DNA from: Seramator thermalis
GTDB lineage: Bacteria; Bacteroidota; Bacteroidia; Bacteroidales; Dysgonomonadaceae
Direction of reading: 5' to 3'
Assembly: GCF_004138125.1 (NCBI RefSeq)
Contig: NZ_RXHS01000008.1
Span: forward strand, 1 to 64,000
Length of the DNA: 64,000 bases
A program made the position numbers and the translations under genes. Position 1 is the stretch's first letter; each line of letters opens with the position of its first letter. This document shows, in pieces, positions 17,414-46,251 of this stretch. The notes below the pieces were generated by a model. That model did no database searches and was not told where the DNA came from. It saw only the letters and a program-made list of their open reading frames with translations.

Positions 17414-19297
17414 CTAACCATCGTTAATTTGCTGAAAACCGGAAAATTGATTTTTTTTGAATTCCGATTTGTGTACTACAGATTTTCGTTTGACGAAGGG
17501 ATAATTTCTGTACCCCAATGCCTGATAAATCGTCTTGACTTTTTCGTTTGGATCGGTGCAACGACGCACATAAATGGTTTCACCGAAATTGTTTTTTCCA
17601 TACGTGGTAACCACCTTTTGCGTGTTGGTTATGCGCACGATTTCCTGCCAGTCATGGTGGATCCCTTTTGCCTTCAGCTGATAGCGAATGGTATTCACCA
17701 GAGAGTAGGCAAGCAAACCAAGATATAGATGTGCCAGCGTAGCATCGTCGTTTTTATGATAAACGGGACGTAAATCCAAATCGGTCTTCAGACATCGGAA
17801 AGCGCTCTCTACCTCACGAATGGTGTTGTAAATGATCCAGAGGGTTTCTTCTCCTTCCGTTTTCAGAGATGTTCGGATGAAATAAACCCCCAAACGCTCT
17901 TCAGCCTCGATAGAGTTTTCTTTTTTCGTCAAAATAATTTCGGTGGCCGTGTCTTGCTCGCTTCTTACCTCAATAGAGTAAAACCGTGCAGCTGAGGGAT
18001 ACTTTTCAATTGCCCTGCCAATGCGTTGATGTACTTTGTCTATCTTCTTTACTCCATGTTTCTTCTCCAACGATTGCCTTATCTTCTCTATTTCCTGCAA
18101 AAACCGGCTCTCAAACTGATTTTTCATCGAGCCTTCCTTCAGGGCTTTCCCCGGACTGCTTATTTTCAGCAAATAATCAGTCATGCCAGCCGATTGCACC
18201 CTTTCAAGGGTTACCGTCTCATCGTTTTTGGTGTTTACTTTGCATACTTTCCCTTCGGGGCCAATGGCGTAATCCTTTATCTTTGTTCGGCTCACGCACA
18301 CGTAGTCGTATCCATTGGCCCGGATCAGTGCCAGATTTTCTTCAGTAGCTATACCGGCATCCAGTACAACAATGGCACGGCATTGACTCTCCGCCGTACG
18401 TACCCGTATCCTGTCGATGATTCCTGGCAGGGAGCTGCTGTCCGACATATTGCCCTCGAATACATCCGAGTATTTGATAAATCCTTCTGCATTGACTACC
18501 AAGGCCGGAACAATCAGCCTGGCATCGCTCCGCTTTTCCTTGCTCCGCCCGAAACGGGCTAAGTTGCTCCCCTTCTTTTCTCCTTCAAAATAGGTGTTGG
18601 TCAAATCGTAAAGGATGATCTTGTCCTGCAAATCGAAAAGTTCGTTCGTCCGTTTGGAGAGGTGCGCTTCCAGCCTGTCCTTTACCCGGTATAAGTCCAA
18701 TGCGCTTTGGTAGAGCTTGTCTTTGGTAATCTTTTCCATCGGATATCCGGTAATCTCGCATACGGCTGAGTTCTCCTGTATCCACCGCGTGGTGCGAAGT
18801 TCGGAGTGGGGATAAACGGCCCGACTGATGATTTGCGTAAAGGCTAACCGTATCTGTTCTTCTTCCCATCCCATCTCTTCCAGCTTTTCCCTGAAGCGCA
18901 GCTGTTCCATCCCCTGATAGCACATCCATTCCGCTCCTGCTTCCCTGCCATCCTTTAGAAGAAGTTCATCGATGTTTACCATACGCTTCTTTTCCTCATA
19001 TGCCCTGTCCGACACATCGATCTTGCCGCTTTCGACCAATTGCTGCCAATAGATGTCTGCCCAGCGAACAGCTTCTTCATCTCCTTGTTCAAAAACATTC
19101 GGGGTGCGGTTTAACCGGTCGGTTAATATGCGACGGATGTCGTTCAGCTTTTCTACTTCATACGGCAAAAAACCGATCGTGAGCAGCGGTCGGTGACAGA
19201 TGCGCCCCGATACGTTCCGGTAGCTTTCTACCAAACGATAATATCCTTCGTAACGTGCCGTTTCGGGATTCCTGCGTATGACCGATTTGAAATACAT
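17414..19297 (-). CDS. IS1634-family DDE transposase
   Basis: The protein (627 aa from ATG 19297, MYFKSVIRRNPETARYEGYY) is a large IS4-superfamily transposase of IS1634 type. Candidate catalytic residues are the Asp in ILYDLTNTYFEG, the Asp in AIVVLDAGIATEENL, and the Glu in EVESAFRCLKTDLDLRPVYH, which belongs to the Y-(2)-R-(3)-E-type signature. The frame is open 11 codons further upstream to a TTG at 19330, but a promoter-like sequence overlaps that extension. The stop lies at the inner edge of the left terminal repeat. Confidence 0.9.
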   Translation of the reverse strand: MYFKSVIRRNPETARYEGYYRLVESYRNVSGRICHRPLLTIGFLPYEVEKLNDIRRILTDRLNRTPNVFEQGDEEAVRWADIYWQQLVESGKIDVSDRAYEEKKRMVNIDELLLKDGREAGAEWMCYQGMEQLRFREKLEEMGWEEEQIRLAFTQIISRAVYPHSELRTTRWIQENSAVCEITGYPMEKITKDKLYQSALDLYRVKDRLEAHLSKRTNELFDLQDKIILYDLTNTYFEGEKKGSNLARFGRSKEKRSDARLIVPALVVNAEGFIKYSDVFEGNMSDSSSLPGIIDRIRVRTAESQCRAIVVLDAGIATEENLALIRANGYDYVCVSRTKIKDYAIGPEGKVCKVNTKNDETVTLERVQSAGMTDYLLKISSPGKALKEGSMKNQFESRFLQEIEKIRQSLEKKHGVKKIDKVHQRIGRAIEKYPSAARFYSIEVRSEQDTATEIILTKKENSIEAEERLGVYFIRTSLKTEGEETLWIIYNTIREVESAFRCLKTDLDLRPVYHKNDDATLAHLYLGLLAYSLVNTIRYQLKAKGIHHDWQEIVRITNTQKVVTTYGKNNFGETIYVRRCTDPNEKVKTIYQALGYRNYPFVKRKSVVHKSEFKKNQFSGFQQINDG

Positions 19298-19303
19298 AAC
19301 GGC

Positions 19304-19335
19304 CAAAGGTAGTCCGCTTTTTCTTATCAAACAAT
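19304..19335 (-). promoter_or_regulatory. Probable transposase promoter inside the IS
   Basis: On the minus strand ATTG (19335-19332), 20 nt, then TACCTTTG (19311-19304), a close fit to TTTG-N19-21-TAnnTTTG. Transcription would start almost at the ATG at 19297, giving a leaderless or nearly leaderless mRNA. Confidence 0.4.
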
Positions 19336-19986: not shown

Positions 19987-20538
19987 TCAATCTTTATACT
20001 CGCCTATAATCTGCTTAACACTTTCGGGCGAAACGCGACCAAAAACTCTTTCGCCTACCATAACCACAGGGGCCAAACCGCAAGCACCAACGCATCGAAG
20101 GCAATTAATCGAAAACTTTCCGTCGGGAGTGGTTTCGCCAACTTCTATATTCAGTTCCTTTTTAAATTCTTCGAGAATTTTTTCCGATCCTCGCACATAA
20201 CAGGCCGTTCCCAAACATATCGAAATCGGATGTTCTCCTTTGGGAGTCATGGTGAAAAAAGAGTAAAACGACACCACTCCATAAACCTGAGCAACAGGTA
20301 TTCGCAAGTTTTGCGCAATCACATCCTGAACTTCTGCCGGCAAGTATCCAAATTCCGATTGAGTCTCGTGCAGCACATTGATCAATTCACCCGGATCATT
20401 ACCAAATGACCGACAAATAGCATCGATTTTTTCGATTTTATCCGCCGTAAGCTTTATTTTTACCTCAACTTGTGTCGACGATCCGTTATAGGGATATTCG
20501 TGTGCAACATTATTTTCTGTATTGGTTTTCGTGCTCAT
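19987..20538 (-). CDS. hydC: NADH-dependent [FeFe] hydrogenase subunit C (NuoE-like, [2Fe-2S])
   Basis: Small thioredoxin-fold subunit of the trimeric HydABC hydrogenase, homologous to complex I NuoE. The 183-aa protein has the NuoE core (LINVLHETQSEFGYLPAEV, VYGVVSFYSFFTMTPKGEH) and four Cys for one [2Fe-2S] cluster: ICLGTACYVRG and NCLRCVGACGLAPVV. It is the last gene of the ten-gene minus-strand operon, 20 bp after hydA. Placing hydC after hydA is unlike the common hydC-hydB-hydA order, which the second cluster in this window does have. Confidence 0.93.
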   Translation of the reverse strand: MSTKTNTENNVAHEYPYNGSSTQVEVKIKLTADKIEKIDAICRSFGNDPGELINVLHETQSEFGYLPAEVQDVIAQNLRIPVAQVYGVVSFYSFFTMTPKGEHPISICLGTACYVRGSEKILEEFKKELNIEVGETTPDGKFSINCLRCVGACGLAPVVMVGERVFGRVSPESVKQIIGEYKD

Positions 20539-20558: not shown

Positions 20559-22331
20559 CTATCGATGAATCGTTACTTCGTTGCCCTTCGGAAAATAGTG
20601 GGTATGCAACAGGCTATGAGCCTTCTTGCTGCCGGGCTCTCCCAAAAATTCGCTGTAGAGGCGAATAATGGAAGGATTCTCATGTGATTTGCGAATGGTT
20701 TTTCTTTCGTCTTCGGTATAAATGGCAGCGGCTCTTTGCCGGAGTATTTCGCTATAGCCATGATGATACGGTTGTCCGCCGCCCCCAATGCAACCGCCGG
20801 GGCAAGCCATAATTTCGATGGCATGGTAGTTAGAAGTCCCTGCGCGAACTTCGTCGAGCAATTTTCGCGCATTTCCCAATCCGTTGGCAATGCCGATATT
20901 CAATGGAAGTCCGTCAAAATCGATGGTAGCAGAGCGAATCCCTTCCAAGCCGCGCAGCTGCTCAAATTCAATCTTTTCCAGCTTCTTTCCTGTATATAAT
21001 TCATAAGCAGTTCGGCAAGCCGCCTCGATCACACCTCCCGTATTGCCAAAAATAACGCCTGCACCTGAGGATTCGCCCAAAGGATCGTCGAAATCTTCGT
21101 CGGGTAAATCCAGAAAGTCGATGTTCGCCAACTTGATAAATGCGGCCAGCTCACGCGTGGAAATGGAATAATCAACATCGGGATTTCCGTTTACTTTAAA
21201 CTCATTGCGCTGACATTCGTATTTTTTTGCCAGACATGGCATAATGGATACAACCACCAAATCATTCCGATTGACACCGATTTTGTCGGCAAAATACGTT
21301 TTTGCTATAGCTCCAAACATTTGTTGTGGCGATTTGGCAGTCGATGGCACGTCAAGCAGATCAGGGAAATTATGCTCAAAAAAGTTCACCCAACCCGGAC
21401 AGCAAGAGGTAAGAATCGGCAACTTAACAGAAGTATCTCCGGCCATATAGCCCTTGATTCGATTCAAAAATTCCGTGCCTTCTTCCATGATGGTGAGGTC
21501 GGCACCGAAATCGGTATCGAACACATAATCGAAACCGAGACGGCGAAGGGCAGCAACCAGTTTGCCGGTAACCAACGTGCCGGGTTCCATTCCAAATTCT
21601 TCGCCGAGAGCAGCTCTAACGGCAGGCGCCGTTTGAACGATTACTGTTTTCGAGGGATCGGATAAAGCCCGAATAATTTCATTGGTGTGATCGACTTCGG
21701 TGAGTGCTCCTGTAGGACATACCGAAACACACTGACCGCAATAAGTGCAAGGCGAATCCTCGAGATTCATTTCGAATGCCGGAGCAACTACCGACATAAA
21801 TCCACGATTGATTGCCGACAGAGCTCCTACCGTTTGCACCTGATTGCACATCATTTCGCAACGCCGGCACAGGATGCATTTGTCGATATCTCGAATGATG
21901 GATGGCGATGTATCTTTTCGATAAGTCGATTGTTCGCCTTTGTAGGGAATTTCGCGTATTCCGAGTTGAGTGGCCAAATGTTGTAACTCGCACTGTCCCG
22001 ATTTTGCACAAACAAGGCAATCGAAAGGATGATCGGAGATGATGAGTTCGAGCACCGTTCGTCGTGCATTGATCACGCGGATATTATGGGTGTTGACCAC
22101 CATTCCTTCCTGTACTTCGGTAATACACGATGGAGCCAGATTGCGACGTCCTTCGATCTCGACAACACAAATACGGCATCCACCCGGCTTATTTTCTATG
22201 CCCATGTCTCCGAGTTCGAAGTGGCACAATGTGGGAATATCGATTCCAAACTGACGTGCCGATTTCAGAATGGTTGTACCTTTTTCGACTTCAATTTTTT
22301 TATTGTCGATGGTAAGTTTTATCATTTCCAT
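20559..22331 (-). CDS. hydA: [FeFe] hydrogenase catalytic subunit HydA (bifurcating, NADH/ferredoxin type)
   Basis: Reversibly reduces protons to H2; in HydABC enzymes this is coupled to NADH and reduced ferredoxin. The 590-aa chain, from ATG 22331, has a [2Fe-2S] domain (C-x10-15-C-xx-C pattern around PGGCRICVVEIEG), a His/Cys [4Fe-4S] segment (HPFDCLVCAKSGQCEL), two [4Fe-4S] motifs (CILCRRCEMMC; CTYCGQCVSVCP), then the H-cluster domain with all canonical signatures: TSCCPGW (Thr308-Trp314), MPCLAKKYE and MACPGGCIGGGGQPY. The C-terminal small-subunit-type tail ends LLHTHYFPKGN. The start at 22331 is preferred over 22373 because homology begins at MIKLTIDNKKIEV. It is 75 bp downstream of hydB. 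Confidence 0.95.
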   Translation of the reverse strand: MEMIKLTIDNKKIEVEKGTTILKSARQFGIDIPTLCHFELGDMGIENKPGGCRICVVEIEGRRNLAPSCITEVQEGMVVNTHNIRVINARRTVLELIISDHPFDCLVCAKSGQCELQHLATQLGIREIPYKGEQSTYRKDTSPSIIRDIDKCILCRRCEMMCNQVQTVGALSAINRGFMSVVAPAFEMNLEDSPCTYCGQCVSVCPTGALTEVDHTNEIIRALSDPSKTVIVQTAPAVRAALGEEFGMEPGTLVTGKLVAALRRLGFDYVFDTDFGADLTIMEEGTEFLNRIKGYMAGDTSVKLPILTSCCPGWVNFFEHNFPDLLDVPSTAKSPQQMFGAIAKTYFADKIGVNRNDLVVVSIMPCLAKKYECQRNEFKVNGNPDVDYSISTRELAAFIKLANIDFLDLPDEDFDDPLGESSGAGVIFGNTGGVIEAACRTAYELYTGKKLEKIEFEQLRGLEGIRSATIDFDGLPLNIGIANGLGNARKLLDEVRAGTSNYHAIEIMACPGGCIGGGGQPYHHGYSEILRQRAAAIYTEDERKTIRKSHENPSIIRLYSEFLGEPGSKKAHSLLHTHYFPKGNEVTIHR

Positions 22332-22406
22332 AAAATAGTTTTTTTTGAAAGGTTGGAGAAAAACGATTTGCAATTCTTTTCTATTCAGATGCCGGGTTGA
22401 AAATCT

Positions 22407-24230
22407 TTACACCGAAACAGTTGTAGGTTTATATTCATTTTTCAAATTGATGGCATCGAATTGGCATTTTTCCATACACGATCCGCATTTGATGCAAATT
22501 TTCTGATCGATAAGGTGTGGTTGCTTTTTCTCGCCCGAAATGGCATTTACGGGACAAACACGCTTGCACGCGCCACAACCCGTACATTCTTCTTCGTCGA
22601 TTACATAATAAAGCAAATCGTGACATTGACCCGAACGACATTTTTTTTCGAAAACGTGTTCTTCATATTCTTCGATGAAATTGTTCAATGTCGAAAGTAC
22701 AGGATTGGGTGATGTTTGGCCCAATCCGCACAAAGCCGTATCTCTGATGACGTTACACAAATTGCGAAGTTTATCGAGATCTTCGGGATCGGCTTTCCCT
22801 TGAGTCATGCGTTCCAAAATTTCATACAGACGCTTGTTGCCAATCCGACAGGGCGCACATTTTCCGCAAGATTCCTCAACGATGAATCCGAGATAATATT
22901 TTGCAACCGAAACCATGCAATCATCTTCGTCGAGTACGATCATACCTCCCGATCCCATCATCGATCCGGCAGCAGTCAAACTTTCGTAATCTATCGGCGT
23001 ATCGAGATGTTTTTCTGTGAGGCAGCCACCCGACGGGCCGCCGGTTTGTACAGCTTTGAATTTCTTCCCGTTTTTGATTCCGCCGCCAATTTCGAAAATA
23101 ATCTCTCGCAGCGTTGTTCCCATCGGGACTTCGATCAACCCCACATTGTTGATTTTACCGGCAAGTGCAAAAACTTTGGTGCCCTTCGATTTTTCGGTAC
23201 CGATAGATGAAAACCACTCTGCTCCTTTCAAAATGATAACCGGAACATTGGCAAAAGTTTCTACATTATTCACGTTGGTAGGTTTGCCGAGATAGCCGCT
23301 TTGTGCGGGAAATGGAGGTTTATTGGTAGGTTCGCCGCGTTTTCCTTCCATGGAATGGATGAGCGCAGTTTCTTCACCGCACACAAATGCTCCCGCTCCA
23401 TAGCGTAAGTTGATGTCGAAAGAGAAATCGGTGCCGAAAATATGCTCGCCGAGCAATCCGTATTGATGTGCCTGATCGATGGCTACTTTCAATCGCTTAA
23501 CTGCCAGTGGATATTCGGCTCTTACATATATCAAGCCTTTGCCGGCACCGATGCAATAACCGCAAATTGCCATTGCTTCGAGGACCGAATGAGGATCGCC
23601 TTCGAGAATGGATCGATCCATGAAAGCACCGGGATCACCTTCATCGGCATTGCATACTACATATTTCTGATCAGCGGGATTCTTACTGGTGATTTCCCAT
23701 TTCAAGCCGGTAGGAAATCCTGCCCCACCTCTTCCTCGAAGCCCGGAACGCTTGATGATGTCAATCGTTTGCTCAGGTGTATATTCACTCAATACTTTAC
23801 CCAAAGCTTGGTAGGCATCGCGGGCAATGGCTTCATCAATGTTTTCCGGATCGATCAGCCCACAATTACGCAAAGCAACACGCAATTGTTTTTTGTAAAA
23901 TCCCATATGCTTAGAGTCCGAAACATATTCCTGTGTGTCGGGGTCGAGATATAGAAGCCGAGTAACCTTTCGCCCTTTAATAATATGCTCGTCAATGATT
24001 TCGGCAGTGTCTTCGGGCTTCACTTGTGTGTAAAAGGTATCATCGGGTAATATCTTGACAATTGGCCCTTTTTCGCAAAAGCCAAAGCAGCCAGTGCGAA
24101 TCACCTGAACTTCGTTTTTTAGACCTTTTCGCAGGAGTTCATCCTGAAACAGTTCACTAATCAATCCGCTTTGTGAAGACCGGCAACCCGTTCCCCCACA
24201 CACCAAAATATGCATTTTATACTGACTCAT
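22407..24230 (-). CDS. hydB: [FeFe] hydrogenase subunit HydB (NuoF-like, FMN/NADH site)
   Basis: Flavin subunit exchanging electrons with NAD(H); in HydABC it is the proposed site of bifurcation. The 607-aa protein starts with a thioredoxin-like [2Fe-2S] domain with four Cys (VCGGTGCRSSQSG; RTGCFGFCEKG). The NuoF core follows, with the NADH/FMN motif GRGGAGFPTGLKW (about residue 164), NADEGDPGAFMDR, and the [4Fe-4S] site ESCGKCAPCRIG. It ends with a two-cluster ferredoxin domain (CTGCGACKRVCP; CIKCGSCMEKC). Order and length are typical of HydB. It starts 18 bp after the small ferredoxin gene. Confidence 0.95.
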   Translation of the reverse strand: MSQYKMHILVCGGTGCRSSQSGLISELFQDELLRKGLKNEVQVIRTGCFGFCEKGPIVKILPDDTFYTQVKPEDTAEIIDEHIIKGRKVTRLLYLDPDTQEYVSDSKHMGFYKKQLRVALRNCGLIDPENIDEAIARDAYQALGKVLSEYTPEQTIDIIKRSGLRGRGGAGFPTGLKWEITSKNPADQKYVVCNADEGDPGAFMDRSILEGDPHSVLEAMAICGYCIGAGKGLIYVRAEYPLAVKRLKVAIDQAHQYGLLGEHIFGTDFSFDINLRYGAGAFVCGEETALIHSMEGKRGEPTNKPPFPAQSGYLGKPTNVNNVETFANVPVIILKGAEWFSSIGTEKSKGTKVFALAGKINNVGLIEVPMGTTLREIIFEIGGGIKNGKKFKAVQTGGPSGGCLTEKHLDTPIDYESLTAAGSMMGSGGMIVLDEDDCMVSVAKYYLGFIVEESCGKCAPCRIGNKRLYEILERMTQGKADPEDLDKLRNLCNVIRDTALCGLGQTSPNPVLSTLNNFIEEYEEHVFEKKCRSGQCHDLLYYVIDEEECTGCGACKRVCPVNAISGEKKQPHLIDQKICIKCGSCMEKCQFDAINLKNEYKPTTVSV

Positions 24231-24248: not shown

Positions 24249-24653
24249 TTATTGTTCTTCCTGTTCGATGGTATCATAATTCTGAGGAATAATGCCATCC
24301 ACCAATTCTCCGTGCTTGATATACCGCTCGATGATTTCGTCGGCACGGACATTATCCACATATCCAAAAACCATTGCTTCTTTGCCCGGAAGTATAACTT
24401 CGACCGTAGGTTCGGCGAAACAATAGCCCATGCATCCCGTTTGCGTAACGATGGCATCGATATTTCTTTTTTCGAGTTCTTCCACAAAATATTCCATCAC
24501 TTTTTTGGCGCCGGCCGCTATGCCACAGGTTGCCATTGCAACTTTGACTTGCACGCGTGCTTCGGGATTTTCGGCTTTGTTGCGCAAGTCGATTCTCGAT
24601 TTAACTTCCTCCTGTTTTTTTTTCAGGTCAGCTAATGTTTTGATTTCAGTCAT
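24249..24653 (-). CDS. Small thioredoxin-like ferredoxin-domain protein of the hydrogenase operon
   Basis: A free-standing [2Fe-2S] thioredoxin-like domain resembling the N-terminal domain of HydB and NuoE. From ATG 24653 it is 134 aa (MTEIKTLADLKKKQEEV, then a charged helix). The visible Cys are in MATCGIAAGAKK and QTGCMGYCFAEP: three, not the usual four, because the second position of the first pair is replaced by CGIAAG. It may bind a cluster with another ligand, or be a redox-inactive docking protein. An in-frame ATG at 24686 would add 11 residues. It lies between the GHKL ATPase and hydB, the usual place for this family in hydrogenase clusters. Confidence 0.8.
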   Translation of the reverse strand: MTEIKTLADLKKKQEEVKSRIDLRNKAENPEARVQVKVAMATCGIAAGAKKVMEYFVEELEKRNIDAIVTQTGCMGYCFAEPTVEVILPGKEAMVFGYVDNVRADEIIERYIKHGELVDGIIPQNYDTIEQEEQ

Positions 24654-24698
24654 GTCGATATTTTGATTTAAAATATTAATTCTCATTATATTGCAGAT

Positions 24699-25262
24699 CT
24701 AACAAAGGTAACTGCCGCAAGGTCGTTTTCGAAATAATTCCTCGAAATTGGCAGTAAAAAATTCTTTGAGTGCAAAAAACATTTCGGCAGTATCCAAGTC
24801 AATTCCAAGTTGTTTCAGTTCGTCGGAGTCAAAACGAAATTCGTCATCATCTAATCGGTAAAGCGCTCGAAATCGAATTTCCGGATTGGTCTTGAGCAAT
24901 AAGGCCAGTGTGCCTGCAATATCTCCCAGTGGCAAACAGTCGGGATGATCGGTTCGATAAACAGCTTTTACCCATGCCCCCATTTGGGGCTCAGATTTAA
25001 CTTCGAGACTTCCTCCCGTTTGCTCGCACGTCATCTTCAAAAGAGGTACACCCAGTCCAACTTTTCGGGTAGTGCGTGTGGTAAAAAACGGATCATCCAT
25101 TTTCTTCAGCATTTCTTTGTTTATCCCTATTCCGTCATCATTCACAACAAAAGTCAATGTGTGATCTTTTGTTTTTTCTTCGAACAGAATGTCGATCGTT
25201 TTCGCATTTGCCCGAATAGAATTTTGTACAATATCCATCAGATGCATCGATAAATCTACCAT
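24699..25262 (-). CDS. GHKL-type ATP-binding protein (histidine-kinase-like ATPase) of the hydrogenase operon
   Basis: The 187-aa protein has a HATPase_c fold without a histidine-phosphotransfer or sensor domain. Its N-box is MDIVQNSIRANAKTI (residues about 9-23), the G1 box VNDDGIGI, and the G2-like region TRKVGLGVPLLKMTCEQTGG. The remaining 70 residues are acidic and end with two Cys (RPCGSYLC). Such stand-alone ATPases are recurrent in [FeFe] hydrogenase clusters, but their partners are not defined. Its start overlaps the end of the PHP gene by 7 bp, indicating translational coupling. Confidence 0.82.
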   Translation of the reverse strand: MVDLSMHLMDIVQNSIRANAKTIDILFEEKTKDHTLTFVVNDDGIGINKEMLKKMDDPFFTTRTTRKVGLGVPLLKMTCEQTGGSLEVKSEPQMGAWVKAVYRTDHPDCLPLGDIAGTLALLLKTNPEIRFRALYRLDDDEFRFDSDELKQLGIDLDTAEMFFALKEFFTANFEELFRKRPCGSYLC

Positions 25263-26014
25263 ATCTCGGAGTCGTGATTGAGAATTTCAGATCCAAAAGC
25301 ATTCCTTTCGAAAGCCGATCTAAAAAAAATCCAGTTCAATTCGGGCATCCGAAAAAAAGTGGTGAGAGTGCCGATATCCTCCAATTGATGTGCATCGGAG
25401 TTGCGAAGAATACGCGCATTTTGCAATTCGGGATGCATTTTCAAAAATTCGGGGACAGAATGTCGCTTCGAAATTTCGAGTGCGTCGTATTTCAAATCGA
25501 AGGGAATGAACCCCAACTGACTGAAAATGCTATTTTTGAGACGATCGATATGGGCCGGCACAAAAATTCCACCCAACGCGTGAACTTGATTTGCCACATT
25601 TTCTATATCATCACGAATTCCCAAATACAGTGATCGCTTTTCTTCAAATATAATTCCATCATCCTCATCCACTGCAACCTGGTATCCAAATAAATCAGGA
25701 TCATTTTCTATTTCGGGTAACTTTCGGTCGAGATATTTTTGAAATTCCGATATCGCCTCCAAATCGGGAAAATATGCCAAACAATGCACCTCTTCCTGTG
25801 TATTTATTTCACATCCGGGAACAACAAAAATATTCTCTTTTTCGGCAATTTCAAGACAGGTTTTCACGTTCCTTGTCGAATTGTGATCCGTTATCGCAAT
25901 CATATCCAGCCCTTTTTGTATGGCTGCTTGGATAATATTGCGCGGGCTCATGTCCAAATCGCCGCAAGGAGACAGACAGGTATGAACGTGCAAATCGGCC
26001 TTGTAAAGATTCAT
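25256..26014 (-). CDS. PHP-domain metal-dependent phosphoesterase-like protein
   Basis: The 252-aa protein has the four PHP metal-binding motifs: DLHVHTCLSPCGD at the N-terminus, AITDHNST, PGCEINTQEEVHCLAY, and the late HIDRLKNS and RNSDAHQLEDIG. PHP proteins hydrolyse phosphate esters or nucleotides; the substrate here is unknown. An acidic insertion (VDEDDGIIFEEKRSLYLG) sits mid-protein. It overlaps the upstream DRTGG gene by 4 bp (ATGA) and the downstream ATPase gene by 7 bp. PHP genes of this type recur in hydrogenase operons, suggesting turnover of a small phosphorylated signal or cofactor, which is inference. Confidence 0.88.
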   Translation of the reverse strand: MNLYKADLHVHTCLSPCGDLDMSPRNIIQAAIQKGLDMIAITDHNSTRNVKTCLEIAEKENIFVVPGCEINTQEEVHCLAYFPDLEAISEFQKYLDRKLPEIENDPDLFGYQVAVDEDDGIIFEEKRSLYLGIRDDIENVANQVHALGGIFVPAHIDRLKNSIFSQLGFIPFDLKYDALEISKRHSVPEFLKMHPELQNARILRNSDAHQLEDIGTLTTFFRMPELNWIFFRSAFERNAFGSEILNHDSEIW

Positions 26015-26358
26015 TCCGCTTGATTGAGATAGACGTACAATTTGCCTGCGGTTTCGAACGCAGGAAGATGAGACGAAAGAATAACAACGCCTTCTTCATC
26101 GGCATGCTTCACGACTTCGTCGTCAATCTCACGTTCGTTCACGACTATAATGGCGCTCAACTCTTTGAGCGAAGCAACAGCCACAATATTCTTGTGTACT
26201 TGTGAGGTGATCCAAAGCATGCCCGGTTGGGCCTTGCCAATGACGTCACTCAACAAGTCCGATACGTATGCCGATTGAGGTATTCGATCCGGCAAATTTA
26301 TTCCGGACAACGGCTCGAAGTTCAAATCGGCGGCTAATTTTTTAAGATTCGTTTTCAT
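26011..26358 (-). CDS. DRTGG-domain protein, second copy
   Basis: A 115-aa DRTGG-type domain alone (family PF07085, found as a regulatory domain next to CBS domains and in phosphotransacetylases). Recognisable parts are YVSDLLSDVIGKAQPGMLWI, then IVAVASLKELSAIIVVN and the C-terminal VVILSSHLPAFETAGKLYVY. It is homologous to the first gene of the operon (28143-28484), both ending in FE(T/I)(A/S)GKLY. It overlaps the HydS-like gene by 17 bp and the PHP gene by 4 bp. A ligand, perhaps a nucleotide, is plausible but unproven. Confidence 0.82.
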   Translation of the reverse strand: MKTNLKKLAADLNFEPLSGINLPDRIPQSAYVSDLLSDVIGKAQPGMLWITSQVHKNIVAVASLKELSAIIVVNEREIDDEVVKHADEEGVVILSSHLPAFETAGKLYVYLNQAE

Positions 26359-27712
26359 CGGTATATTTGTTAAGTCGGTTCTGCCCCCAAATTTTCTCGA
26401 TTACCGAAAATGATTGTTCGGGACTTAGTTTATAGTTTTTTTCCATCACGCGTTGCACAAACACACAATAAGAAATGCTTGCTCGGTCTTGGGCAATATC
26501 TTCGGCCAGCGCCCTACAGCTGGGCGCTCCACAAGCGCCGCAATCGAAACCGGGCAAAAATGTCATCAGCTTTTTGATATGCTTCATTTTCTGAAGGGCT
26601 TTTCCCATATCCTCGTCGAGTTGCAGTCCTTCGCGTGGTTCAACCGCATCGATTTGCAGCTCCCGATGCAATTCCTCCGAAAATTCAAACAGCATATTCG
26701 TTACTTTTCCTTCATTTTGGAGTTTCAATTTTTCCAATTTTTTCTGACGTTGTTCGAGTCGTTCCACCGCAAGAAATCGGTTACAGGGACAAAGGATGCC
26801 ACCGGCACAACCCTGATCACAAGCACGCATTTCCAAAAAATCGATATGTGCCAACTGACCCGATTCGAGTTTATCGAGAAATTCGATGACATTGTTCATC
26901 CCGTCGATAGCCAAACTTCTTCCTGAAAAGTATTTTTTTTCGGTTCCCGATAACGACCAGCATACCGAATCCGGACTCATGTTGGCATACGATTTGTGCA
27001 ATCCCGAACTTTTATCTTCCCGTATGATTTTCGACACCAGATTGTAGATGATTTTCATATCGATAGTCCCGTCGATTGGCGATTCTTTTTCGGCAACAGG
27101 ATCACGGGCAGCCACAATTTTTGCCGCACATGGCGTGATGTAATAAATATAAATTTCGGATGGCGGAATGCCTTGTCTTTCTTTAGATTTTCTCAGGTAA
27201 AGCGCCGCAATGTCGTGAGGCGCTTTCAATCGAATGATTTGATCGGTGAGCGAAGGATAGAGCACTTGTATCAACCGGACAACGGCGGGACAAAATGAAG
27301 TAATTGCCGGCCGTTGGTCGATTTCATTTTCCAAATGACGGTATTCACTTTTTACCATATCCACAGCTTGTTCAACTTCGAAAACATCGTCAAATCCAAT
27401 TTGTCTGACAGCCTCAAGAATTCGCGTGGCAGAATAATCGGAAGGAAATTGTCCGATAAAAATCGAAGGTACAAGAGCGATTCGGTAACCGCTACTTTTG
27501 ACCGACGCAAGACCATCGTCCTTTACATAAATTGCCCGTTGCGGGCAAACTCTGAAGCATTCACCACAATCAACGCATCGAACCGATTGAATGCGGGCAT
27601 GTCCTCCGTCAATGCGAATTGCCTCGGTAGGACAAACCCGCATGCAATGAGAGCAACCGATGCACTTATCGGCATCGATCTGAATTGCATGAGTGTATGT
27701 GTACTGCTTCAT
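26342..27712 (-). CDS. HydS-like [FeFe] hydrogenase homologue, putative redox/H2 sensor
   Basis: The 456-aa protein has two [4Fe-4S] ferredoxin motifs (CIGCSHCMRVCP, Cys17-27; CVDCGECFRVCP, Cys46-56), a diverged [FeFe] hydrogenase large-subunit domain, and a C-terminal PF04060-type [4Fe-4S] domain (FDCGACGAPSC, Cys391-399, with Cys416). The four Cys equivalent to the H-cluster ligands remain: Cys141 in TSFCPAVV, Cys195 in TPCAAK, Cys298 and Cys302 in RACDQGCAGG. The proton-relay Cys of TSCCP is Phe140 here. A coiled coil (about 312-335) links the two halves. Loss of the relay Cys and location in a regulatory operon fit a sensory (group C-like) protein rather than a catalyst. Unlike many group C proteins it has no PAS or phosphatase domain. 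Confidence 0.85.
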   Translation of the reverse strand: MKQYTYTHAIQIDADKCIGCSHCMRVCPTEAIRIDGGHARIQSVRCVDCGECFRVCPQRAIYVKDDGLASVKSSGYRIALVPSIFIGQFPSDYSATRILEAVRQIGFDDVFEVEQAVDMVKSEYRHLENEIDQRPAITSFCPAVVRLIQVLYPSLTDQIIRLKAPHDIAALYLRKSKERQGIPPSEIYIYYITPCAAKIVAARDPVAEKESPIDGTIDMKIIYNLVSKIIREDKSSGLHKSYANMSPDSVCWSLSGTEKKYFSGRSLAIDGMNNVIEFLDKLESGQLAHIDFLEMRACDQGCAGGILCPCNRFLAVERLEQRQKKLEKLKLQNEGKVTNMLFEFSEELHRELQIDAVEPREGLQLDEDMGKALQKMKHIKKLMTFLPGFDCGACGAPSCRALAEDIAQDRASISYCVFVQRVMEKNYKLSPEQSFSVIEKIWGQNRLNKYTDENES

Positions 27713-27731
27713 TGCTGCACTTTTTTGGGTA

Positions 27732-28142
27732 TCAGAAAAGAACTTTCATTTTCAAACAGGTTCCTCTTCCCGGAACGGAAGTCAGAATCATTTCGTCAAC
27801 ATTTTTTTTGATATTGGGCAATCCCATTCCTGCGCCAAATCCCATCTGACGAACCGCTTCCGATGCCGTCGAGAACCCTTCTTCCATAGCTTTTTCGATG
27901 TCCTCGATACCGGGACCTTCATCTTCAACGATCACACGAATACTCTCGGGTTCGATATCAGCTTTCATAATTCCTTTATAGGCATGTGCCACCACATTCA
28001 CTTCGGCTTCGAACAATGCAATTGCGATTCGCCGAACAATTTGTGGATCGATGTTGAATTGTTTTAGCAATTTCTTAATTTCAGAACTTGCCTGTCCGGC
28101 CGTGCTGAAATCTCCTCCTTGTATTTCGTACTGCACCTCCAT
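27732..28142 (-). CDS. Anti-sigma-factor-like GHKL ATPase (RsbW/SpoIIAB-type)
   Basis: The 136-aa protein is a serine-protein-kinase/anti-sigma ATPase homologue: N-box ALFEAEVNVVAHAY, G1 box VEDEGPGIEDIEKAM, G2 box QMGFGAGMGLPNIKKNVDE, then TSVPGRGTCLKMKV. Families of this kind phosphorylate STAS-domain antagonists or bind sigma factors, but no STAS or sigma gene is present in this operon. The ATG follows the TGA of the DRTGG gene with no gap. It is followed after 19 bp by the HydS-like gene, so the two are likely made together. Confidence 0.88.
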   Translation of the reverse strand: MEVQYEIQGGDFSTAGQASSEIKKLLKQFNIDPQIVRRIAIALFEAEVNVVAHAYKGIMKADIEPESIRVIVEDEGPGIEDIEKAMEEGFSTASEAVRQMGFGAGMGLPNIKKNVDEMILTSVPGRGTCLKMKVLF

Positions 28143-28484
28143 TCAATATACCGGTTTGATGCCGTTCATATATAATTTGCCCGAAATTTCGAATACCGTC
28201 AGGGGTGACGAAACAAGGGCAATATGATTTTCGGATGCGAGTGCTATCATTTCGTTACTGATTTGTTTTCCACGCGCGACGACTATGCACGGCAGGTTTG
28301 ACATTTCGGCGGTGCGAACCGTTTGAATGGTTGATAAGCCGGTAATGAGAACGGCATCGTCCATATGGAAACGAAGGACATCACTCATCAAATCCGATGC
28401 AAAAGCATATCGATAATCCACTGATTTGACCGGATCATGGAGGATATTGCCTTTCACTATGTTACTCAACTGTTGCAAAGTCAT
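28143..28484 (-). CDS. DRTGG-domain protein, first gene of hydrogenase operon 1
   Basis: A 113-aa stand-alone DRTGG-type domain: FASDLMSDVLRFHMDDAVLI, MSNLPCIVVARGKQIS, and the C-terminal ALVSSPLTVFEISGKLYMNG. It shares pattern and ending with the second copy at 26011-26358. It is the promoter-proximal gene, about 175 nt downstream of the predicted transcription start, and abuts the anti-sigma-like ATPase gene. Role unknown; a ligand-binding regulatory function is inferred from the domain family. Confidence 0.82.
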   Translation of the reverse strand: MTLQQLSNIVKGNILHDPVKSVDYRYAFASDLMSDVLRFHMDDAVLITGLSTIQTVRTAEMSNLPCIVVARGKQISNEMIALASENHIALVSSPLTVFEISGKLYMNGIKPVY

Positions 28485-28665: not shown

Positions 28666-28673
28666 CAAATGTA
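28666..28673 (-). promoter_or_regulatory. -7 element of hydrogenase operon 1
   Basis: On the minus strand TACATTTG, matching TAnnTTTG. It lies 14 nt downstream of the palindrome at 28688-28707, so the -33 position falls inside the proximal half-site. The same eight bases occur in the same position in front of hydrogenase operon 2. Confidence 0.65.
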
Positions 28674-28687
28674 TAATTTTTCTTTCA

Positions 28688-28707
28688 TTAAAGAAATAAT
28701 TCTTTAA
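28688..28707. promoter_or_regulatory. Palindromic operator of hydrogenase operon 1
   Basis: TTAAAGAAATAATTCTTTAA: perfect 8-bp arms around a 4-bp spacer, extended to 9 bp by the flanking A and T. The same 20 bp (as reverse complement), plus one further base, occur at 46016-46035 before hydrogenase operon 2. The centre is about 203-213 bp before the first start codon. Arm sequence does not match the Rex consensus. Probable binding site of a dimeric regulator shared by both operons. Confidence 0.75.
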
Positions 28708-28829
28708 TATTTTTTTCTGATGAACATCAAGTCTATTCACTCCGACATCAAGAATCTGAAAAACAAAAAATTCCACTTTTAAAGAAAGGAAAAAAGATAC
28801 ATAAAACCAAAAGAATGCCAACAATTTTG

Positions 28830-42147: not shown

Positions 42148-45100
42148 TTAATGTTTCACGTCACACCTCAGGCATCTTTCCACCTCATTGCGGGCCTGCT
42201 CGCCCGTAAATCCGAAAGAAATCTCGTTGAAATTATTCACCCGGTCTTTCACCGAAAGTCTTCTCGGAACATTCTTCGAAGCCGGTTTTGGATTTGCGGG
42301 CACAACATTCCGGTAATTAAACGGACGCGAGAGCCGGTAAAACCTGTTTTCACCCGTCAATGCCCTGTCCATCGCTGCAGCCGCTTTCTTCGCCATCCCC
42401 ATCGCCTCTGCCGCCGTCGAGGGGCCGCTTACCGCATCTCCGCCGGCGTAGATTTGCGGGTCGGATGTTTGAAAAGTAAACGGATCTATAACTATTCGCC
42501 CGTCCCGTGTAAGCTCCATATTGTTTTCGACAAGGCACCCGGAATCGACCCGTTCACCAACAGCCAGCACAACAGTATCACACGGAATTTCTTCAAATAC
42601 TCCGGTGGGAACCGGTTTCTTCCTTCCGGAAGAATCGATGCTTCCAGGCAACATCTTCTCTACGCGTAACGCTTTTACTCTGCCCGATTTACCCGTAATA
42701 ATCCCGCTGGGAGAAGCCAGAAAACGATAGTTGATCATTTCTTCTTCCGATTCCGATATCTCCACGGCGTTGGCAGGCATATCCCCTTTTCCCCGCCGGT
42801 AAACGATAGTCACATCCTTTCCCAGTCGCAACAGGCTCCGGGCCGTATCGATGGCCACGTTCCCGCCGCCGACAATAACGACCCGCTCACCCACTTTCGG
42901 TGTTTTACCCAGCGCAATCTCTTTCAAAATTTTTGTTCCTGCAAAAACACCTTTTGCATCTTCTCCCGGAATTTTCAAATCGATATCTTTCCACGCACCT
43001 ATCGCCAGATAAATGGTGTCGAACTCATTTTTCAGCTCGGCCAGGGAAAGATTGTCGCCCAGCCGCTGGTTGAACCTGAACTTCACACCCAGTTTTTTTA
43101 TCAGCCGGACTTCCTTCCTCAACACATCTTTCGGCAAACGATAATTCGGTATACCAAAACGCGCTACTCCCCCGGCTTCGGACAAAGCCTCGTAAACGGT
43201 GATATCATGGCCCAGTCGCACCAGGTAAAAGGCTGCCGTAAGTCCTGCAGGCCCGGCACCTACAATGGCAATCCTTTTTCCGGTAGAAGGAAGTCTCTCT
43301 TTAACCAGTTTATTGTAGATTTCGTTCTCTTTTCCGAGCTGGTACATGGTATCTGCCAGGTATCGGTGGATTTCGCCTTGCGAAACCGGCTGATCCAGCA
43401 TTTCACGACGGCAACGCATTTGGCAATGGAAGTGGCAAATCCTCCCTATCGTTCCCGGCAGGGGATTATCGCGCAGCGTAAGCTCAAAGGCTTCTTCCAC
43501 ACGATCTTCCTTAATCAGCTCGATGTAGCCCGGAATATTCATGTGCAGCGGGCAGCTGTTTTCACACAAAGCCATGAAAAGCGATTCGCACGTCCCTGCA
43601 TGACACCGTTTCTCCCGGATGTGTTGTTCATACTCGTGCCGGAAATATTTTAACGTGGTCAGAATGGGATTAGGGGCGGTCTGCCCAAGAGCGCAAAGCG
43701 ACGAATCTTTGATAACACCGCTGAGCAACTCCAGGACGGCCAAATCGGCGAACGTCCCTTGCCCCTGGGTGATGCGGGTGAGAATAGCCAGTGCCTGTGC
43801 CGTACCTTCACGGCAGGGTGTACATTTCCCGCACGATTCTCCTGCATTGAACTCCAGAAAATAGCGAGCCACGTCCACCATGCAGTTGTCCTGATCCATT
43901 ACCACCATTCCTCCCGAACCCATGATGGCTCCAATGCCTGCCAGCGACTCGTAATCCACCGGGGTTGAAAAAAACTCCAGCGGGATGCAACCGCCGGACG
44001 GCCCACCGGTTTGCACGGCCTTTACCCGTTTGGAAGTTCCCGTACCTTCCCCGATATTGAACACAAATTGTTCCAATTTTGACCCAAGGGGGAGTTCTAC
44101 CAACCCCGTATTTTTCACTTTTCCTACCAACGAAAACACTTTTGTTCCGGGACTTCTTTCCGTCCCCATAGTGGTGAACCACTCGGCACCTTTTTCGATG
44201 ATGACCGGCACGTTGCACCAGGTTTCCACATTGTTGATGTTGGTAGGTTTACCGTACAACCCTTTGTTGGCAGGATAAGGCGGACGCGGAAGCGGCCGAC
44301 CCGCCTTCCCTTCGATAGAAGCAATCAATGCTGTCTCTTCACCGCAAACGAAGGCTCCAGCCCCTTCAACAATATCCATCTTAAAACTAAAGCCGGTACC
44401 CAATATATTTTCACCTAAAAGCCCGAGTTGTTCGACTTGCTCGATAGCCGTCCGAAGCCGCTTTACGGCAAGCGGATACTCTGCCCTCACGTATGCGATG
44501 CCCTCACTCGCTCCCATGGCGTAAGCACCTATCATCATACCTTCGAGCAGCATGTGCGGATCGCTTTCAATCTCATTCCGGTTCATATACGCGCCCGGGT
44601 CGCCTTCATCGGCATTGCAGATAATATATTTCTGCCGGGCATCCTGTTTCTGCATGATTGACCATTTTACTCCCGTAGGGAAACCTGCTCCTCCCCGACC
44701 ACGCAGTTTCGACGCCATGACCTGATCGACCACTTCTGCCGGCTTGTAACCCATAATCGCTTTTACCAGGGCATTATATCCTCCCACAGCAATATAATCA
44801 AGAATGTCTTCGGGGTCGATAAGGCCGGCATGGCGCAACACCACTTTCTTCTGCCCCTTAAAAAAAGGCACTTCATCCCAGTGAGGAATATCTTCGTAAC
44901 CCTTTCCAAATTCCACCTCCGAAGTCAGGAAATCCCATTCATCGATACGGCACAATAGCTTGTTTTTGTACAGTTTGTTTTTCTGCAAGTTATCCATGAT
45001 TCGCTTCACATCCCTCTCATCCACTTTACTGTAGACCAGCATGGGCCTACCCGGCTGATAGAGCATCACCATCGGTTCTTCGGCGCAGAAACCGAAGCAA

Positions 45101-45282
45101 CCGGTCCGCTTGAGTTTACAATCGAGGTTATTCTCCGACAGCTGCTTTTCGAAATGATGATAAACCGCACCGGCTCCGTTACCGATACCGCAGGTCCCCA
45201 TTCCAACCAAAATCATGGGAGTTGCCGGAAGAATCCTTTCCCTGTGCTGCTTTCTTAAAATTTCAATTTCGGACGGTTTCAT
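42148..45282 (-). CDS. Fusion of HydB (NuoF-like) with a GltD/NfnB-like FAD/NAD(P)H oxidoreductase
   Basis: From ATG 45282 the protein is 1044 aa. Part 1 is HydB-like: thioredoxin-like [2Fe-2S] domain (GTCGIGNGAG; RTGCFGFCAEE), NuoF core with GRGGAGFPTGVKW and NADEGDPGAYMNR, and [4Fe-4S] site ESCGKCTPCREG (about residue 482). Where normal HydB has a two-cluster ferredoxin, this protein has a Cys-rich linker (CENSCPLHMNIPGY; ICHFHCQMRC). It continues as a GltD/NfnB-type module with FAD motif AIVGAGPAGLTAAFYL (about 673), NAD(P)H motif VIVGGGNVAIDTARS followed by IVYRRG (about 800-825), and a final ERCLRCD. VYRR after the second Rossmann strand favours NADPH. The start overlaps the hydC2 stop (ATGA). 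Confidence 0.92.
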   Translation of the reverse strand: MKPSEIEILRKQHRERILPATPMILVGMGTCGIGNGAGAVYHHFEKQLSENNLDCKLKRTGCFGFCAEEPMVMLYQPGRPMLVYSKVDERDVKRIMDNLQKNKLYKNKLLCRIDEWDFLTSEVEFGKGYEDIPHWDEVPFFKGQKKVVLRHAGLIDPEDILDYIAVGGYNALVKAIMGYKPAEVVDQVMASKLRGRGGAGFPTGVKWSIMQKQDARQKYIICNADEGDPGAYMNRNEIESDPHMLLEGMMIGAYAMGASEGIAYVRAEYPLAVKRLRTAIEQVEQLGLLGENILGTGFSFKMDIVEGAGAFVCGEETALIASIEGKAGRPLPRPPYPANKGLYGKPTNINNVETWCNVPVIIEKGAEWFTTMGTERSPGTKVFSLVGKVKNTGLVELPLGSKLEQFVFNIGEGTGTSKRVKAVQTGGPSGGCIPLEFFSTPVDYESLAGIGAIMGSGGMVVMDQDNCMVDVARYFLEFNAGESCGKCTPCREGTAQALAILTRITQGQGTFADLAVLELLSGVIKDSSLCALGQTAPNPILTTLKYFRHEYEQHIREKRCHAGTCESLFMALCENSCPLHMNIPGYIELIKEDRVEEAFELTLRDNPLPGTIGRICHFHCQMRCRREMLDQPVSQGEIHRYLADTMYQLGKENEIYNKLVKERLPSTGKRIAIVGAGPAGLTAAFYLVRLGHDITVYEALSEAGGVARFGIPNYRLPKDVLRKEVRLIKKLGVKFRFNQRLGDNLSLAELKNEFDTIYLAIGAWKDIDLKIPGEDAKGVFAGTKILKEIALGKTPKVGERVVIVGGGNVAIDTARSLLRLGKDVTIVYRRGKGDMPANAVEISESEEEMINYRFLASPSGIITGKSGRVKALRVEKMLPGSIDSSGRKKPVPTGVFEEIPCDTVVLAVGERVDSGCLVENNMELTRDGRIVIDPFTFQTSDPQIYAGGDAVSGPSTAAEAMGMAKKAAAAMDRALTGENRFYRLSRPFNYRNVVPANPKPASKNVPRRLSVKDRVNNFNEISFGFTGEQARNEVERCLRCDVKH

Positions 45283-45797
45283 AACGATAGGGTATAGTTG
45301 CTGAGGATTTTCAGCAATTTTCGGGAATTCATGTTGCTGTAAATAACATTGTCTATGGCCACGACGGGCGATTGCGCGCATTGTCCGAAGCAGGACACCG
45401 TCCTGATAGTAAACAGGTTATCGGGAGTAGTATAGGATGATTCGGCATCATCACCGGTATATTTAATACCTAAAATTTTTTCTATATCATCCAGCAAGGC
45501 TTTTGAACCTTTCGTGTGACACGCCGTGCCGCGGCAAACGACAATCGAATGCTTACCCTGTGGCTTTAAATTAAAGAAGGAATAAAACGTGGCTACACTG
45601 TAGACCTGTGCATACGGCACCTTTAGTTTTTTCGATATTTCGGCTAGCGTTTCACCCGGAAGATACTTCAGGGGGTTTTTCTCCTGTGCTTCTTCCAGGG
45701 TAGTGAGCAACATCCCGGGCTTTCCACGGTGCTTTTCGATGATCTTATCGAGTATTTCTCCTGAAACCGGAGCGTTTGTCTGTGTTTCCATACCCAT
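45279..45797 (-). CDS. hydC: Hydrogenase subunit C of cluster 2 (NuoE-like, [2Fe-2S])
   Basis: The 172-aa thioredoxin-fold subunit has the NuoE core (LLTTLEEAQEKNPLKYLP; VYSVATFYSFFNLKPQGKH) and four Cys for a [2Fe-2S] cluster: VCRGTACHTKG and SCFGQCAQSPVV. It is the first gene of operon 2, with a leader of about 188 nt from the predicted start site, and its stop overlaps the hydB2 start codon (ATGA). Confidence 0.93.
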   Translation of the reverse strand: MGMETQTNAPVSGEILDKIIEKHRGKPGMLLTTLEEAQEKNPLKYLPGETLAEISKKLKVPYAQVYSVATFYSFFNLKPQGKHSIVVCRGTACHTKGSKALLDDIEKILGIKYTGDDAESSYTTPDNLFTIRTVSCFGQCAQSPVVAIDNVIYSNMNSRKLLKILSNYTLSL

Positions 45798-45991: not shown

Positions 45992-45999
45992 CAAATGTA
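45992..45999 (-). promoter_or_regulatory. -7 element of hydrogenase operon 2
   Basis: On the minus strand TACATTTG, identical to the element of operon 1, 16 nt downstream of the palindrome at 46016-46035. The -33 region is covered by the proximal half-site. Confidence 0.65.
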
Positions 46000-46015
46000 G
46001 TGCATTTCTTCCTGA

Positions 46016-46035
46016 TTAAAGAATTATTTCTTTAA
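46016..46035. promoter_or_regulatory. Palindromic operator of hydrogenase operon 2
   Basis: TTAAAGAATTATTTCTTTAA: perfect 8-bp arms and a 4-bp spacer; the exact reverse complement of the site at 28688-28707, with one more identical flanking base. I found no third copy in the window. Confidence 0.75.
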
Positions 46036-46251
46036 ATATTTATGTTTCTTTTTCTATTTGGAATAATTCTACATAAAACACCAGTTACCTATTGCTAAAG
46101 AACAGATGGGACATTCTCCTGAGGGAAAAATTAGGATTCAGTTTGCCTAAAATTGAATTTTACAAACAATTTCACTCATATTACACTTGCTACTTGACTC
46201 TGTCTATCGCATTTTGAAACAACCATTTTTCCTTATTCCATGAATTTTATG

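Follow-up and report, generated by a model that had tools for sequence, protein, structure and literature searches.

A conserved six-gene cassette built around a sensory [FeFe] hydrogenase in Seramator thermalis, and its possible role in the control of electron-bifurcating enzymes

How sensory [FeFe] hydrogenases relay their signals is an open question; the authors who described TamHydS of Thermoanaerobacter mathranii pose the question of how the signal is transduced (PMC8163306). The same question is raised by a locus of Seramator thermalis, where a gene for such a sensor lies among five others directly ahead of a four-gene bifurcating [FeFe]-hydrogenase set, and this six-gene unit (the cassette) names likely partners for the sensor. 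The DNA analyzed, here called the window, comprises positions 1 to 64,000 of contig NZ_RXHS01000008.1 (assembly GCF_004138125.1), in which the six open reading frames (ORFs) are packed on the minus strand from 28484 to 24699. An earlier reading of this DNA, made from the letters alone (the sequence-only reading), had proposed a circuit reporting redox or hydrogen (H2) state. The cassette is interpreted here, with a probability of roughly 0.5, as a split, H2- or redox-gated sensor-ATPase unit controlling an electron-bifurcating enzyme of the NuoEF type, in this case a HydABC-type [FeFe] hydrogenase. Such a cassette probably lets anaerobic bacteria tune hydrogen and electron traffic, which would matter wherever anaerobic digesters, syntrophs, or gut Bacteroidales produce H2. 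The genes of the cassette and of the structural set that follows are:

28143-28484, minus strand: DRTGG1, a DRTGG-type domain protein of 113 amino acids (aa)
27732-28142, minus strand: RsbW/SpoIIAB-like Bergerat ATPase, 136 aa, without a sensor domain
26342-27712, minus strand: HydS, group D-type sensory [FeFe] hydrogenase, 456 aa, without a PAS or kinase domain
26011-26358, minus strand: DRTGG2, a second DRTGG-type protein, 115 aa
25256-26014, minus strand: PHP-family phosphoesterase, 252 aa
24699-25262, minus strand: second ATPase (GHKL2), of the GHKL/Bergerat type, 187 aa, with an 80-aa C-terminal domain
24249-24686, minus strand: [2Fe-2S] thioredoxin-like ferredoxin, first structural gene
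22407-24230, minus strand: HydB/NuoF-like subunit of the bifurcating hydrogenase
20559-22373, minus strand: HydA, catalytic [FeFe] subunit, with complete H-cluster motifs
19987-20538, minus strand: NuoE/HydC-like subunit, final gene of the set

A conserved unit of six genes

Along the cassette the ORFs are separated by gaps of 0 and 19 base pairs (bp) and then overlap by 17, 4, and 7 bp, in exact agreement with the packing claimed in the sequence-only reading; the structural genes, in the order [2Fe-2S], HydB, HydA, NuoE-like, start 12 bp past its end. Pfam and NCBIfam support each of the families named in that reading (DRTGG, RsbW-like, HydS-like, DRTGG, PHP, and GHKL), the matches in gene order being HPrK_N/DRTGG (DRTGG slightly under its cut-off); HATPase_c_2; two Fer4, Fe_hyd_lg_C, and FeS; DRTGG; PHP; and HATPase_c. 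The co-occurrence of the six families, which the reading had suggested checking, is also borne out. The identical order DRTGG1-RsbW-HydS-DRTGG2-PHP-GHKL is found in 100 of the 114 loci with this type of HydS, a set in which a few genomes are counted twice and most exceptions stop at a contig edge. Median spacing within the cassette is at most 5 bp, compared with a median of 77 bp to the [2Fe-2S] gene. This HydS is encoded in 58 of 198 genomes sampled across the order (E below 1e-50), 57 of which also encode another H-domain protein. Conservation over many genera rules out chance and, judged by its gene order, the cassette is a real unit.

The unit can be uncoupled from its usual neighbor and divided within itself. 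Several cassettes have no adjoining hydrogenase (L081, L082, L083, and L186 of Parabacteroides distasonis), and cassette and hydrogenase may be unlinked within one genome (L082/L182, L083/L169, and L168/L167). Because the hydrogenase genes lie elsewhere in the same genome for L082, L083, and L168, the cassette can act in trans. The copy in the clostridium Subdoligranulum variabile (L185), where DRTGG1-RsbW and HydS-DRTGG2-PHP run divergently to NuoE-GHKL-2Fe2S-HydB-HydA, extends the association of cassette and bifurcating enzyme to two phyla. At L081 the order is DRTGG2-PHP-GHKL followed by DRTGG1-RsbW-HydS, and three loci (L173, L174, and L180) carry DRTGG1-RsbW-HydS alone. This swapped order and these half-cassettes suggest that the cassette consists of two arms. 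Within the first arm, DRTGG1 and the RsbW-like ATPase form a single protein of 265-279 aa in L066, L067, L217, and L219, a natural fusion which suggests that the two act together as a pair.

The sensor and its relatives

The N-terminus of HydS carries two [4Fe-4S] motifs; an H-domain follows in which the four cysteines of the cluster are all present, and at the C-terminus there is a Cx2Cx4Cx16C motif, its spacing matched exactly by C391-C394-C399-C416. All 16 iron-sulfur (Fe-S) cysteines are kept. The protein lacks C299, having F140 instead, and has T193 at the M353 position; across the Bacteroidales loci these positions are F/Y and T/S, respectively, in 109 of 109. The residues S255, E258, D270, and E294 correspond to S249, E252, D265, and E289 of the TamHydS proton path (PMC10407848, PMC8163306), a mapping that relies on a common SGxE motif and on spacing, and E258 and D270 are kept in all 109 loci. 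By these features HydS is a group D-type (M2e) sensory [FeFe] hydrogenase, for which reactivity with H2 is predicted. The HydS-like assignment of the sequence-only reading is thus confirmed and refined to this type, although the link to a neighboring ATPase had already been published.

The closest described counterpart is TamHydS, itself a group D (M2e) sensory hydrogenase (PMC8163306, PMC10407848, PMC13104023). Both have the same domain order without PAS, the Cx2Cx4Cx16C motif, loss of C299, Ser or Thr in place of M353, and the Ser-Glu-Asp-Glu proton path, and in both cases the gene lies upstream of a bifurcating group A hydrogenase and adjoins a histidine-kinase-like ATPase. The window protein differs in having Phe rather than Ala at C299 and Arg rather than Leu at M497. 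The passages found of the TamHydS papers describe the ATPase (and an AraC gene) only, and make no mention there of DRTGG, PHP, or a second ATPase. For Thermoanaerobacter, the bifurcating set was reported to be preceded by genes for a group D protein and a histidine kinase (PMC3608648). In Petrimonas mucosa, hydA (ING2E5A_0849) and hndABCD (0853-0856) are numbered as expected for HydS, three genes, and then the Hnd genes, as in the window, but this HydS was typed as group C1 by HydDB and the intervening genes were not described as a unit (PMC7768429). Already on record, then, are the hydA/hnd locus of P. mucosa (PMC7768429) and, next to bifurcating hydrogenases, the pairing of group D HydS with an ATPase (PMC3608648, PMC8163306). 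No description was found, in the literature searched, of the six-part unit, of its two arms, of the DRTGG1-RsbW fusion, or of cassettes serving [NiFe] or molybdopterin enzymes and the proton-path loss that goes with this (see below), though subscription papers may already report parts of it; DRTGG together with hydrogenase returned unrelated Desulfovibrio papers only.

Group C HydS proteins (those of Thermotoga maritima and Ruminococcus albus, and kinase fusions in Bacteroidota such as L008) share the Fer4-Fer4-H-domain-FeS sensor part and a kinase or phosphatase output. The HydS proteins of the cassettes group together as one clade (100/99), to which neither R. albus HydS nor the long HydS proteins belong, and the cassette ATPases are separate and without HisKA. 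In the one long relative tested (L008:1489-3480), HisKA and HATPase_c are joined behind this sensor part, which makes the protein a hydrogenase and histidine kinase in one piece, and a SpoIIE-type phosphatase gene comes next after R. albus HydS. These two arrangements indicate that related sensors are wired to ATPases or phosphatases. With DRTGG1 and RsbW fused in some relatives and a histidine kinase carried by a related HydS, the cassette looks like the split form of a sensor-kinase. An APH/RIO-like phosphotransferase gene (L187:4715-5464) close upstream of R. albus HydS may encode a further kinase-like partner of sensory hydrogenases.

The host genome (2.98 Mb; Dysgonomonadaceae-type, the closest named relatives being Proteiniphilum, Petrimonas, and Fermentimonas) encodes HydE, HydF, and HydG. 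Its three good H-domain proteins, the HydA of two hydrogenase operons and the cassette HydS, all lie within the window. A degenerate H-domain remnant with three in-frame stops is located elsewhere (C32:76846-77034).

The ATPases, DRTGG proteins, and PHP enzyme

Active-site residues were compared over about 100 homologues per protein. The RsbW-like ATPase has E45, N49, D74-x-G76-x-G78, and G103-A-G-M-G107 invariant in 111 homologues, and its best NCBIfam match is anti-sigma F (spIIAB), at 2.5e-16 but below the curated cut-off. Conserved residues of the second ATPase are D10, N14, D42-x-G44-x-G46, and G69-x-G71; its structural model (predicted local distance difference test, pLDDT, 88.9) resembles MutL/PMS2 and the catalytic and ATP-binding (CA) domains of kinases. 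The PHP protein is invariant at H9, H11, D43, H44, E69, H77, H155, D207, and H209 in 104 homologues, the window protein keeping the full metal-binding His/Asp/Glu set. The nearest fold to its model (pLDDT 94.1) is the PHP domain of endonuclease Q, with a template modeling (TM) score of 0.75, followed by RNase AM and a PHP AMP phosphatase. All three proteins look like working enzymes from these residues, and for the PHP enzyme nucleotides are as likely a substrate as phospho-proteins.

The two DRTGG proteins are distinct conserved paralogues whose invariant residues differ: SDLMSDVL, TGL, Q54, R57-T58, E60, R71, and K73 are conserved in DRTGG1, while DRTGG2 has its own invariant set (Y31, S37-D38, W49, T51, Q53, H55, and N57). 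DRTGG2 scores 27.7 bits against PF07085 (cut-off 25.2), whereas DRTGG1 falls slightly under with 22.9 bits but passes the HPrK_N cut-off with 26.3 bits.

The stand-alone Bergerat ATPase resembles Bacillus SpoIIAB and RsbW, which are likewise Ser/Thr-kinase-like proteins with intact Glu, Asn, and Asp residues and a small partner. The Bacillus systems differ in their STAS partner, sigma factor, and PP2C phosphatase, none of which is present in the cassette, where the phosphoesterase is a PHP protein and the kinase partner appears to be a DRTGG protein. That no sigma factor, STAS partner, or response regulator is encoded alongside had been stated in the sequence-only reading, and this holds for the cassette. 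The single PF01740 match in the host genome (the STAS_2 family was not searched) is a 608-aa ORF, presumably a SulP-type transporter. Membership in classical sigma-factor partner switching was rejected for want of a STAS partner and sigma gene; a two-component system was rejected likewise, as Pfam finds no HisKA in either cassette ATPase and no receiver domain in the six genes.

Target enzymes, operator, and output

The sequence-only reading had placed these gene families near [FeFe] hydrogenases. They are indeed conserved there, but the cassette also occurs at [NiFe]/Hdr and NuoEFG-molybdopterin operons. In 14 loci from a distant class of the phylum it is found with HdrA/B/C-like genes, NuoE-2Fe2S-HydB, [NiFe] hydrogenase subunits, and a HydA-like protein without an H-domain, a set resembling the bifurcating NiFe-HydABCSL enzyme (PMC8880783). 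Four further loci have a reduced cassette ahead of NuoE, NuoF, and a NuoG-like molybdopterin protein, with NfnAB-like genes at L066 (tested) and probably L067. All 18 of these HydS copies have lost the Glu and Asp of the proton path, while the C-terminal cluster motif is intact in 18 and the H-cluster cysteines in 16. HydG is missing from 16 of the 18 genomes, and nine have neither HydG nor another H-domain protein. We read these copies as the same cassette with a HydS that no longer handles H2. The uniform loss of the proton path and the frequent lack of HydG suggest that the common theme is the NADH/ferredoxin bifurcating core and not H2 alone. The proton-path loss amounts to an experiment of nature by which sensing of H2 can be told apart from sensing of redox state. 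Absence of HydG by itself was rejected as proof of an H-cluster-free HydS, as G031 and G124, with apparently normal HydA, also lack HydG matches. Convincing HydA-type genes without HydG above the family cut-off were seen in G031, G124, G269, G302, G200, and G240, several of which also lack HydE and HydF, one being a single-contig genome; either the maturation route may differ or the models may miss HydG.

In the favored reading, the H-cluster of HydS would receive electrons from ferredoxin, H2, or both. By way of the C-terminal [4Fe-4S] domain, the state of HydS would then reach the RsbW-like ATPase/kinase, which would work paired with DRTGG1. The latter may be the phosphorylated or nucleotide-dependent partner of the kinase, in the place held by the STAS protein in Bacillus partner switching. 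The second arm, separable from the first and made up of DRTGG2, PHP, and GHKL2, would reset or oppose it, PHP serving as a phosphoesterase whose substrate is a phospho-protein or a nucleotide signal. The target of the output would be the bifurcating enzyme, more probably reached as a protein than via DNA, since none of the six proteins has a DNA-binding domain and the enzymes that the cassette accompanies differ in their chemistry. These parts are small, soluble, and testable. More tentatively, the cassette may represent a new kind of partner switching, in which a HydS-type Fe-S/H-cluster protein gates an RsbW-like kinase with a DRTGG partner and which evolved to control flavin-based bifurcating enzymes of the NuoEF type in general, the input being exchanged from H2 (with HydEFG and a proton path) to plain Fe-S redox sensing at [NiFe]/Hdr or molybdopterin enzymes.

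Several points weigh against the favored reading. A redox- or H2-reporting circuit, as first proposed, is still the best account of the HydS type, the intact ATPase and PHP sites, the fusions, and the gene order, but while the unit with its parts, active sites, fusion, separability, portability, and operator can be read from the sequences, sensing, phosphorylation, small-molecule binding, direction, and output, like the kinase activity, the target, and the interactions, are parts that we infer. Instead of phosphorylating a partner, the RsbW-like protein could work as an ATPase switch, and the nearest solved folds of PHP, being nucleic-acid and nucleotide hydrolases, do not favor a protein phosphatase. 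Reactivity of HydS with H2 is not assured, because the C299 site holds Phe, bulkier than the Ala of characterized HydS proteins, and M497 is replaced by Arg. A transcriptional output would also be consistent with the tight linkage and with an operator that the two hydrogenase operons of the window share. This putative operator is a palindrome followed 13-15 bp downstream by a TACATTTG box, which matches the Bacteroidetes -7 box (consensus TAnnTTTG):

28687-28708, no strand: palindrome ATTAAAGAA-N4-TTCTTTAAT ahead of the cassette, overlapping the expected -33 region of the predicted cassette promoter
28666-28673, minus strand: TACATTTG box upstream of DRTGG1
46015-46036, no strand: the same palindrome with 1 mismatch, upstream of hydrogenase operon 2, whose first ORF (NuoE-like) starts at 45797 on the minus strand
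45992-45999: the same TACATTTG box upstream of hydrogenase operon 2

Within the 64 kb there are, at up to 3 mismatches, just two copies of the palindrome (0.15 expected), one before each hydrogenase operon, and no further copy was found in 453 kb of the host genome at up to 2 mismatches. In relatives it stands before DRTGG1 or, where the two operons are joined (L087, L090, and L103), before the NuoE gene of operon 2. Elsewhere in the order it is weaker but enriched: with up to 4 mismatches allowed, 10 of 81 upstream regions contain it, against 9 of 600 random stretches. A GAA-N4-TTC core is shared with the Rex operator consensus, but the flanks differ and no link was found, and assignment to the known Rex consensus was rejected.

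It is possible, if rather doubtful, that the cassette is a transcriptional H2 or redox switch, in which phosphorylation, gated by HydS, finally reaches a regulator whose gene lies elsewhere and whose binding site is this palindrome before both operons. The restriction of the site to the two hydrogenase operons, its position at the head of the transcription unit even where operons have been joined, and the proposal that R. albus HydS regulates HydA2 synthesis (PMC11837493) would all fit. The cassette itself, however, has neither a DNA-binding domain nor a sigma factor, the one STAS match of the genome is the 608-aa ORF, the operator is recognizable in part of the Bacteroidales only, and the site could be that of a general redox regulator with the cassette itself among its targets.

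A role in assembly or repair of the Fe-S/flavin bifurcating enzyme, in which HydS would be a scaffold for clusters and the ATPases would switch in the manner of chaperones, is unlikely. Tight co-transcription with three kinds of NuoEF-type complexes, the existence of chaperone-like machines among GHKL ATPases, and the richness of HydS in Fe-S sites speak for such a role, but operon 2 of the window and many HydA genes have no cassette, HydEFG are separate and complete in the host, and group D HydS is itself a reversible H2 enzyme (PMC8163306). The narrower case of H-cluster assembly as the only role, which the sequence-only reading had raised against itself, is disfavored, as the cassette persists in the nine genomes without HydG or another H-domain protein. 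Equally improbable is a nucleotide circuit in which the DRTGG domains bind an adenine-nucleotide messenger made by an ATPase and degraded by PHP, with HydS setting its level. No nucleotide cyclase or polyphosphate synthase is present in the cassette, and in CBS-pyrophosphatases nucleotides bind the CBS part, not DRTGG. Such a circuit would nevertheless agree with the fold of PHP, closest to nucleotide and nucleic-acid hydrolases, with the differing invariant residues of the two DRTGG proteins, and with the co-occurrence of DRTGG and nucleotide-sensing CBS domains in pyrophosphatases (PMC7226116, PMC11172384).

Two other features of the window concern its hydrogenase operons. Operon 2 encodes a 1077-aa protein in which a NuoF-like subunit is joined to a GltD/NfnB-like pyridine-nucleotide oxidoreductase (42148-45381, minus strand), and a transposase-like ORF of 638 aa (17414-19330, minus strand) lies immediately past operon 1.

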